Assembly: GCA_017859815.1 (NCBI GenBank)
Contig: JAFMMM010000014.1
Span: 1 to 33,836, forward strand
Direction: 5' to 3'
DNA length: 33,836 bases
Source: Planctomycetota bacterium
GTDB lineage: Bacteria; Planctomycetota; Planctomycetia; Planctomycetales; Planctomycetaceae
Positions within the stretch are counted from its first letter, which is position 1, and every line of letters starts with the position of its first letter. Both the position numbers and the translations under genes were made by a program. A model generated the notes under the pieces. That model was not told where the DNA came from, did no database searches, and saw only the letters and a program-made list of their open reading frames with translations. Of this stretch, positions 15,900-22,368 are shown in pieces.

Positions 15900-16127
15900 C
15901 CTCTACTGAATGTGACCACCGCTGTGGAATCTGCCCTCGGGGTTCCATGCACCCTTCGGTAGCAATACCGAAGCTTATCCAACTCTCGGCAGGTGGTCGA
16001 ACATCAGTACCGTTCTTACGAAGTTGTGATCCCTGACTACTCGTCAACGGTCGCGTGCATTAGACTCCCCGGTTGCCTTCGGATCGGCAGCAAGTTCCGT
16101 CATTGTCTGTCTGATCCGTAAGCGAAT

Positions 16128-16213
16128 GGCCAGGTGGCGAAATTGGCAGACGCACGGGACTTAAAATCCCGGGTCTCGGAAGAGACGTACGGGTTCGACC
16201 CCCGTCCTGGCTA
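16128..16213 (+). tRNA. tRNA-Leu (anticodon TAA)
   Basis: GGCCAGG/CCTGGCT acceptor stem with terminal G.U, D-arm GCGAAATTGGCAGACGC, anticodon arm CGGGACTTAAAATCCCG, long variable arm GTCTCGGAAGAGAC, T-arm ACGGGTTCGACCCCCGT, discriminator A. No encoded CCA. Confidence 0.95.
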
Positions 16214-16621
16214 ATTCCTGAAAGCAAACAGGATGTTCCCGATTGGTTGCTCCAGTCCAGAAACTGGTGCCCGGCACCGCAGGAAATCCCCACCACCTCA
16301 CTGCTGTTGAGGCATAGTGCAGCTTTCGCCGCAGATTTCGTTTTGCTGATACCCGGCCCCACGAAATAACCTTGATGCCGGATACTGCCGGTCCTGCCGG
16401 ATTTCGATGGATTGCAACCAATAAATCCCTGCTCCTGCGATTTGCCACGTTGTTCAGCGAAGCCTGTGATTTGCAGATTCATCTGAACCAATATCTGGTC
16501 ATTCAGTTCCATCAACAGTGCTTCGATGCACAGTGATGTTGTTTTTCGTATCCTGCAGCGACAGCATTTTTCCAGCTCGCTCAACAGTCATCGACTCATC
16601 CACTGTGGAGTTAAAACCAAC

Positions 16622-19428: not shown

Positions 19429-19685
19429 TGAGAGACCTTTCGGAACAGGTAGGAAACAGGGCAGGAACTATCCACGAGGATACTCGGAAAAGCCTGAAAA
19501 GGAAAACAGGAACTCCCGGAAACCGTCGGTCAGGCGATCCAATAAATGTCCCCAGGATGACAGTGAAGAGGCGAAATTTGCAGACGCATGACTTCGTTTT
19601 TTCTGCACGAGGCGATATTTAAGAGTGGCAGGCGTCTTCAAGGTTTCTCACGCTGCAATTGCCACTCCAGCAAAGTAGTCCTCGG

Positions 19686-21314
19686 ATGCACTCAGCAGTT
19701 CAAACGGAATCACTCATTGTTGGCGGGGGACTTGCCGGAACAGTTTTGGCATGGTGCTGTTTCCAGCGAGGTGAGCGAGTGACTTTGCTGTATTCTTCAA
19801 AGCGAGCAGCGGCGTCCAGTGTTGCAGCAGGACTGATGATGCCCATCAGTGGTCGCTGGATGAAATTGGATCCGGATTACCCGAAGCTTCTGGAAGTGGC
19901 CCAACAGTTCTACGGGGATGTCCAGGAAACTCTGGGATCTGTTCTTTTTGAACGTATTGAGATCCAGCGAAAGTTTTACGACGAATCAGAGCGGGCACTG
20001 TTTGAGACTGAGCGGTATCGGAAGCTGCGGGAGTTGGTTGAGGTCTTACCTGATGGCAGCGGTTTTCTGATGCCTGGTGCTCGGCTGAATGTCCCGCGAT
20101 TTCTTTCTGCCAGCAGGCGCTGGTTCTCTGAATCCGGGTGTGTGATCGAAGCAACGCTGTCCGCGGAGACTCCAATTGAATTTGCACCGGAGGAAGTCCG
20201 GATACCGTCTTTGGGGCTGACATCACGTCGAGTGTTCTTTTGCACGGGGGCCCATGATTCTCTGCAGGACCTGTTTCCGGGAGTACCGAACCATCCTGTA
20301 CACGGAGAAATCCTGCGGATTCGTCTGCCGGAAAAGCTGGAATGTGATACGAGCGTCTGCAGACACTGGGTGACGCCAATTCATTCCGGCGAAAAGGAAA
20401 CTCCTGTCTTCGATTACCTTGTCGGCGCCACATTTGACCGTGAACATCCCGGGCAGGGGCCCACGCGGGAAGGAAGTCTGCTGCTGCTGCGGTCCGCAGC
20501 GGATCTTTTGCAGTTATCACTCGGTTCCGATCATGTCATGGAACATCAATGGGGAATACGTGCGGCGATGAAAAATCGTCGAGTTCTGATTCAACGTCAC
20601 CGGAAGTATCCTCAGGCAGCTGCCCTGAATGGGCTTGGATCGCGAGGTTCACTGCTTGCACCGACCGCAGCCAGGGATATGCTCAATATTATGGATCAAC
20701 AGCCTCAGCAGGAAAAAGCGGCACCGGCAGCAGGAACTGTCAATCTGACAGCGATGGCTCATACAGCCGTCCGTCGGCGGTATCGCTCGGGTGACTGGTT
20801 GCTCGATGCAACTGCCGGAAACGGGCACGATACATTATTCCTCGCTGGACTTGGTGAACCGTCTCGGGTCATCGCTGTGGACATTCAGCAGACGGCGATC
20901 CGGCAAACGCAACAACGTCTGGCTGATTCCGGGCTGCAGGGGGTCACTCTGTATCACGCCGAACACGCCATGGCTCTGGGCACGATCCTTGATGAGGGAT
21001 TGGTCAGGGATGTGGGTGCAGTGATGTTCAATCTTGGATATCTTCCGCGCAGCGACCACCAGCTGATCACGCGGGCTGAAACAACAATCCCTGCACTCAG
21101 GCATGCAATCGATTTACTGCGACCAGGTGGTGTGTTGACGGTCCTCGCATATCGCGGGCACTCCGGAGGTTCTGAAGAGGCCGAGTCTGTCGATCAATTC
21201 TTTTCAGAAACTCAGGCTGGACAGGTTTCGGTAATACCCGGGAACACAGACGACAGCAGTTCACCGGTGTTATTTCTCTTTCAGAAGTCAACTTCAGTGA
21301 ATTCTGACGCTTAA
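19686..21314 (+). CDS. Predicted bifunctional tRNA modification enzyme: N-terminal FAD-dependent (DAO/MnmC1-like) oxidoreductase fused to a C-terminal YtqB/MnmM-like SAM methyltransferase
   Basis: N-terminus: SLIVGGGLAGTVLAWCCFQRGERVTLLYSSKRAAASSVAAGLMMPISGRWMK. C-terminus: GDWLLDATAGNGHDTLFLAGLG, AVDIQQTAIRQTQQRL, AVMFNLGYLPRSDH, LRPGGVLTVLAYRGHSGG. ORF is open from 19659; MHSAVQTES is the preferred start. Confidence 0.85.
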   Translation: MHSAVQTESLIVGGGLAGTVLAWCCFQRGERVTLLYSSKRAAASSVAAGLMMPISGRWMKLDPDYPKLLEVAQQFYGDVQETLGSVLFERIEIQRKFYDESERALFETERYRKLRELVEVLPDGSGFLMPGARLNVPRFLSASRRWFSESGCVIEATLSAETPIEFAPEEVRIPSLGLTSRRVFFCTGAHDSLQDLFPGVPNHPVHGEILRIRLPEKLECDTSVCRHWVTPIHSGEKETPVFDYLVGATFDREHPGQGPTREGSLLLLRSAADLLQLSLGSDHVMEHQWGIRAAMKNRRVLIQRHRKYPQAAALNGLGSRGSLLAPTAARDMLNIMDQQPQQEKAAPAAGTVNLTAMAHTAVRRRYRSGDWLLDATAGNGHDTLFLAGLGEPSRVIAVDIQQTAIRQTQQRLADSGLQGVTLYHAEHAMALGTILDEGLVRDVGAVMFNLGYLPRSDHQLITRAETTIPALRHAIDLLRPGGVLTVLAYRGHSGGSEEAESVDQFFSETQAGQVSVIPGNTDDSSSPVLFLFQKSTSVNSDA

Positions 21315-21387: not shown

Positions 21388-22368
21388 ATGAGAGAATTGG
21401 CGGCATTTTCAGAACAAACAAAAGCGGAGCAGCTGGCTTCCTTTCTGTTATTCCATGATTTGGAAACACAGCTGGAGGAAGAGGAGAATCAATGGACTGT
21501 CTGGATTCTCAACGACGACCACCGCGATCAGGCGAACCAACTGCTTCAACAGTTTCAGGAGGGAGCCGATCCGGCTCTGATCAGACAGGCGGAAGAGCAT
21601 GTCGAAAAAGTTCGTAAAGAACAGCTGGAAGATCAGATCAAGCGGCGACGAAGTGCGGCTGCTGCAGCACGCATGCGACAACGTTGGGATGGAGTCTGGT
21701 ATCGCAGTTTTCCGGTCACTGTTGTACTGATTTCCATCAGTTTTGCTGTGGCGTTGTTGACCAGCAACTTTCGTGCTGAAGAAAACAGGGGCAGCTTGTT
21801 CCCCAGACTCTGCAACAAACAGGATTCGGAGCTGCTGCAGGGGTTATTCCTCGATGTGCCGTTAACCACTGCAGAGCGCCTGCAAATGTTGTTAACGGGT
21901 GAGCGGCCATCTTTGTATCAGATTGTCCAAAGCGGACAGGTTTGGCGGTTCGTAACACCGATATTCCTGCACTTTGATTTTCTGCACATCCTGTTCAACA
22001 TGTACTGGATGTGGGGACTTGCCCGAGGCATCGAATACCTGCGGGGCAGTTTTCGCTTTGCCGGTCTGGTGCTGGTGATTGCCGTGGTATCGAACGTGGC
22101 CCAGTGGTACTGGGCGGGGCCGAACTTTGGAGGAATGTCCGGGGTGGTCTTCGGTTTGATTGGCTATGCGTGGATGAAGGGGCGGTATGAGCCTCACCAG
22201 GGAATTGGAATGCGGCAGGAACAAATCGTTTACTGCATGTTCTTTCTGTTTCTTGGGATGGGAGGTTTATTTGGTCCGGTGGCGAATGTGTGCCACGTCG
22301 CCGGCCTGTTGACGGGGATTGTGGTAAGCAGGGTGAACGCAGTCCGAGAGATCATCAGTGGTCGGTAA
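21388..22368 (+). CDS. Rhomboid family intramembrane serine protease
   Basis: HFDFLHILFNMYWMWGLARGIE, catalytic GGMSGVVFGLIGYAW, catalytic NVCHVAGLLTGIV, plus a cytoplasmic N-terminal domain resembling that of GlpG. Confidence 0.92.
   Translation: MRELAAFSEQTKAEQLASFLLFHDLETQLEEEENQWTVWILNDDHRDQANQLLQQFQEGADPALIRQAEEHVEKVRKEQLEDQIKRRRSAAAAARMRQRWDGVWYRSFPVTVVLISISFAVALLTSNFRAEENRGSLFPRLCNKQDSELLQGLFLDVPLTTAERLQMLLTGERPSLYQIVQSGQVWRFVTPIFLHFDFLHILFNMYWMWGLARGIEYLRGSFRFAGLVLVIAVVSNVAQWYWAGPNFGGMSGVVFGLIGYAWMKGRYEPHQGIGMRQEQIVYCMFFLFLGMGGLFGPVANVCHVAGLLTGIVVSRVNAVREIISGR

Follow-up and report, generated by a model that had tools for sequence, protein, structure and literature searches.

An FAD oxidase fused to an MnmM methyltransferase in a planctomycete: a probable analogue of MnmC built from other parts

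The question raised by this locus is whether a single planctomycete protein, in which an FAD oxidoreductase precedes a methyltransferase, performs the work for which E. coli uses the bifunctional enzyme MnmC. The gene lies in the window, by which we mean the whole stretch of 33,836 nucleotides that was analysed. We predict, from sequence and genome evidence, that the fusion probably finishes the modification of the tRNA anticodon wobble position. It is in our view likely a functional analogue of MnmC, converting cmnm5(s2)U34 to nm5 and then to mnm5 with different parts and in the reverse domain order; it likely works like MnmC without being a member of the MnmC family.

The gene can be read from an ATG at 19686 or from an alternative in-frame TTG at 19659, and both versions end at 21314. 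The features to which we refer are:

19686..21314, + strand: fused oxidase-methyltransferase gene, 542 aa, uninterrupted frame
19713..20678, + strand: DAO-type FAD domain, predicted cmnm5(s2)U34 oxidase (residues 10-331; PF01266, family profile A1), with the motif GGGLAG at residues 13-18 of the 542-aa protein
20559-20561, + strand: invariant Arg292, aligning with glycine oxidase Arg302
20697..20741, + strand: inter-domain linker (residues ~338-352), placed by low model confidence and by linker comparison with the related fusion L093
20742..21281, + strand: MnmM methyltransferase domain, predicted nm5(s2)U34 methyltransferase (residues 353-532; NF053511), with key residues D382, N449, Y452, Y489 and H492

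That one open reading frame joins a DAO-type FAD half to an MnmM half, as the preliminary description had it, is borne out by the uninterrupted frame, by the Pfam matches (DAO, PF01266, residues 10-331, E=2e-20; PF06962, residues 395-520, E=1.5e-34) and by the NCBIfam match described below; the motifs it quoted (GGGLAG, AAASSVAAGLMMPISGRWMK, DATAGNGHDT, FNLGYLPRSDH and GHSGG) all occur in the translation, and the joint that it located near 20690-20756 agrees with our placement of the linker. A structure model of the 542-aa protein has both halves confident (mean pLDDT 89, pTM 0.72), with the joint between them poorly modelled (residues 341-350, pLDDT ~45). An assembly artefact or a frameshift that merged two genes can be ruled out, because the sister protein L093, from an independently assembled Planctomyces sp. 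MAG, has its junction at the same point while being 41% identical from end to end. Fusions more distant than L093 were also found.

The identity of the C-terminal half, for which MnmM had been claimed, is well defined. It scores 161 bits against the NCBIfam model tRNA_U34_MnmM (NF053511, residues 353-532), above the curated cut-off of 135, and solved MnmM/YtqB structures are matched both by sequence (3eey, 3e-30; 8h0s, 4e-26) and in a fold comparison. Mutants of the B. subtilis enzyme that lose nearly all activity are those of K11, D34, N101, Y104, K110, Y141 and H144 (PMC9976899). The equivalents of D34, N101, Y104, Y141 and H144 are retained in the fusion as D382, N449, Y452, Y489 and H492, i.e. 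5 of the 6 residues that can be mapped; the K110 position is occupied by His458, a substitution frequent among planctomycete relatives, and K11 falls beyond the pairwise alignment. Judged by curated score and fold, and in keeping with most of the key residues, the sequence of the C-terminal half is that of a member of the MnmM family.

The oxidase half is less readily named. A designation as MnmC1 had to be abandoned: the score against MnmC1 (TIGR03197) is 44 bits with a cut-off of 174, and the tree places it in a separate DAO clade. ThiO is likewise excluded by the tree and by its cut-off (TIGR02352, 70 bits, cut-off 251), the ThiO score of the window protein exceeding its MnmC1 score. A tree built from 114 domains shows the FAD family as a single clade (support 100), separate from MnmC1 (99) and apart from the DAO paralogues of the host genome itself, with a branch support of only 18 for the relative order of this clade, MnmC1 and the ThiO-like proteins. 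Profile A1, built from 20 planctomycete relatives of the FAD half, ranks glycine oxidases first among the solved structures and MnmC next, while a fold comparison puts iminodiacetate oxidase IdaA (6pxs) at the top, followed by glycine oxidases and MnmC. The closest solved folds, IdaA and ThiO (1ryi, 4ysh), are ~18-20% identical to the FAD half and act on free small molecules. Arg292 is invariant across the family, and its glycine oxidase counterpart, Arg302, holds the substrate carboxylate. Chemically, iminodiacetate (N-carboxymethyl-glycine) and cmnm5U are both N-carboxymethyl amines, and the step predicted for the FAD half, from cmnm5U to nm5U, would hence be of the type that iminodiacetate oxidase performs.

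What ties the two halves together is their genomic arrangement. In most Planctomycetaceae relatives they are encoded by two separate, adjoining and usually overlapping genes, of which the oxidase gene leads; the start of mnmM either overlaps the oxidase stop (ATGA) or precedes it by a few codons. Among 103 copies of the FAD family examined, 12 are fusions; mnmM is found nearby in 48 and is not nearby in the remaining 43 (the survey of named genomes comprised the best 80 FAD matches; the true spread is wider, and the counts are not frequencies). Linkage between the FAD family and PF06962 extends across phyla. The order oxidase-mnmM recurs in Verrucomicrobiota, Methylococcales, a member of the Mariprofundaceae (Zetaproteobacteria), Hyphomicrobiales and a member of the Ignavibacteria (Ignavibacteriota), and a position of the FAD gene directly upstream of mnmM is thus shared by Planctomycetaceae with four or more further lineages. 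Every fusion found comes from a Planctomycetaceae-type genome. A 720-aa "fusion" in one other planctomycete (G265, locus L049) was discounted, its N-terminal part having no FAD match and looking like a chance open frame in GC-rich sequence. Mapped onto the FAD tree, fusion requires six changes of state, of which well-supported branches force two or more; such counts do not distinguish gain from loss. Within Planctomycetaceae the fused form occurs sporadically, as a variant of a two-gene operon that several phyla possess, and it is not the norm among planctomycetes.

The distribution of the two genes points in the same direction. Among 399 Planctomycetota genomes, PF06962 was found in 29 and the FAD family (E<=1e-20) in 23, all of the latter belonging to the family of the window, Planctomycetaceae. 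Within this family 23 genomes have both, 5 have neither and none has only one; the chance of such a split would be 1e-5 for independent genomes, a figure that overstates the case because the genomes share kinship. In three of them (G024, G290 and G328, all outside the search profile) both genes are present but far apart. The link between the halves is upheld by the operon, by repeated fusion and by joint presence or absence in the window's family. Six Planctomycetota genomes of other families have a PF06962 match (one of them weak) without the FAD family; MnmM without the FAD family was noted there in G017 (L028), G060 (L035), G073 (L030), G109 (L025) and G265 (L049). MnmM genomes of this type have to rely on a different oxidase or on MnmEG working with ammonium. 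In Planctomycetota three arrangements occur side by side (L051-L062), namely the ordinary fused MnmC (PF05430, frames >600 aa), PF05430 methylases standing as orphans, and the system based on MnmM; many genomes have none of the three.

Where the FAD gene has no mnmM nearby, a methylase is usually encoded elsewhere: of 38 searchable named genomes of this kind, 33 have PF06962 or PF05430 at another position (PF06962 in 16, PF05430 in 19, both in 2, one of these weakly). Neither was found in the other 5, some of which are incomplete MAGs. Sixteen Bacteroidota genomes with the FAD family have PF05430 (MnmD) elsewhere and lack PF06962 (loci L115, L117, L119, L120, L126, L129, L137-L140, L154, L159, L160 and L163-L165), and the Bacteroidota may use the FAD family as a free-standing MnmC(o). 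This co-occurrence is weaker evidence than the operons, as PF05430 may be common in Bacteroidota regardless; within the fetched flanks, no FAD gene adjoins PF05430 in this group.

The preliminary description proposed a check of the host genome for related genes: mnmG (817 bits), mnmE (224 bits, full length, below its own cut-off of 253) and mnmA are all present and a canonical mnmC is absent, there being no match to PF05430 in the host genome; the fused gene is its only PF06962 match. Its other strong DAO matches (L003 left out) were typed as DadA-, ThiO-, SolA- and HpnW-like, none as MnmC1. As to the neighbourhood, a gene for tRNA-Leu(UAA), a tRNA that MnmEG is known to modify in bacteria of other groups, is located 3.5 kb upstream of the fusion (16127-16214, +), a proximity that is probably due to chance. 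Directly after the fusion and on the same strand follows a rhomboid-family membrane protein (21388-22368, +), and further downstream, also on the same strand, a 6-pyruvoyl tetrahydropterin synthase/QueD-like protein (PF01242; 24297-24776, +), which could serve queuosine synthesis, a modification of the same tRNA position 34.

We propose the following pathway, in which the activity of both halves of the window protein is predicted. MnmE-MnmG would attach the carboxymethylaminomethyl group to U34 of the tRNA, and the N-terminal FAD domain would oxidise this N-substituted glycine at its N-CH2(COOH) bond, so that glyoxylate is released and nm5(s2)U34 remains, the freed amine of which would then be methylated by the C-terminal MnmM domain with SAM to give mnm5(s2)U34. 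Like MnmC, the fusion would keep the enzymes of two successive steps in a single chain, and it probably originated from a translationally overlapping two-gene operon with the oxidase gene before mnmM. Its existence can be accounted for in this way because the two genes of the relatives adjoin and usually overlap, a proportion of the copies being fused.

E. coli MnmC likewise carries a SAM methyltransferase and a DAO-type FAD oxidase on one chain, with the same predicted pair of reactions. As claimed at the outset, the domain order is opposite (FAD first in the fusion, the FAD motif near residue 270 of 668 in E. coli) and the methyltransferase belongs to another family, PF06962 (MnmM) instead of PF05430; the FAD half falls far under the MnmC1 cut-off, in a clade separate from E. 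coli-type MnmC1. Having no PF05430 domain and missing the MnmC1 FAD cut-off, the fusion was rejected as a member of the MnmC family. The term "convergent", which had been applied to it, is appropriate for the methylase, which comes from another family, and for the fusion event itself; it does not extend to the oxidase, which shares the DAO superfamily with MnmC1. To our knowledge, the known MnmM proteins are stand-alone; those of B. subtilis and S. aureus (8h0s, 8h1b) resemble the C-terminal half in cut-off, fold and most key residues, and differ from it in that the fusion carries MnmM behind an oxidase and has His458 for K110. MnmL is an FAD-dependent oxidoreductase and, likened by description and not by sequence, resembles our FAD half in its predicted step and its partner methylase. 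It is the name given to the B. subtilis cmnm5 oxidase, credited to Jaroch et al. 2024 in a passage of PMC12548931. In the 2023 paper on the discovery of MnmM, an oxidase-methylase fusion or operon was sought in Gram-positives and not found, and the MnmC(o)-like partner was left unknown in MnmM organisms and thought likely to exist also alongside orphan MnmC methylase (PMC9976899). Our literature search, which did not reach the primary MnmL report, found no description of an MnmM-oxidase fusion, and a text search for PF06962 returned unrelated papers only.

Several observations count against the reading as an MnmC analogue. MnmEG can form nm5U directly from ammonium (PMC9976899), in which case an oxidase would not be needed; the FAD half lies under the MnmC1 cut-off and has diverged at 9 of 42 positions; and there are the 6 Planctomycetota genomes with PF06962 but without the FAD family, and the 5 FAD genomes with neither methylase. 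It is conceivable, but unlikely, that the MnmM half alone works on tRNA, being supplied with nm5U by the ammonium route, while the FAD half oxidises a small molecule (glycine, iminodiacetate or some comparable amine) and the fusion is incidental. The nearest folds are indeed iminodiacetate and glycine oxidases, ThiO outscores MnmC1 on the window protein, and some MnmM genomes lack the FAD family. On the other hand, recurrent operons and fusions, perfect joint presence or absence in the family and the keeping of both genes even when unlinked are hard to account for without a shared pathway, and the host genome already has a separate ThiO-like protein.

The FAD half of the window protein ranks with the most diverged members of the family, differing at 9 of 42 strongly conserved positions (median 3), and that of L093 likewise departs at 9 of 42. 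In both proteins the acidic residue that ends the second strand (Asp36) is replaced by Tyr or Gly. G13, G15, G18, S44, G49, P53, R292, N315, G316, G321 and P326 are retained in the window protein. We also observed that an "RPxxxxxxPxxG" stretch after the substrate-binding Arg, near-universal in relatives, is altered in the window protein (19686-20678) and in L093, with Pro293, Pro300 and Gly303 substituted. That the FAD half is catalytically dead in the window protein, surviving as a structural or tRNA-binding domain while its relatives remain active, would fit the changed positions, Asp36 among them, but is the least probable reading, as the residues listed above are retained, the frame is intact in two lineages sharing just 41% identity, the domain is modelled with high confidence, and E. 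coli MnmC1 also has no acid at the Asp36 place and no Pro following the Arg.

We retain the reading of the fusion as a likely functional analogue of MnmC. It is quite possible, if short of probable, that the FAD half represents a third class of cmnm5U34 oxidase, not described before and separate both from MnmC1 and from MnmL (the latter compared by description only), present in at least five phyla, pairing with MnmM or MnmD and joined to MnmM on more than one occasion within Planctomycetaceae. The FAD family is linked to MnmM through operons, fusions and shared presence or absence, and to PF05430 through co-occurrence in Bacteroidota; this makes it a concrete candidate for the oxidase that is missing from the cmnm5U pathway of Planctomycetota, Verrucomicrobiota, Bacteroidota and some Proteobacteria. 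The fused protein permits a single-gene test, as it should, if the proposal is true, replace E. coli MnmC alone. The two steps would then have become fused on a separate occasion, in reversed order and with a methylase from another family.
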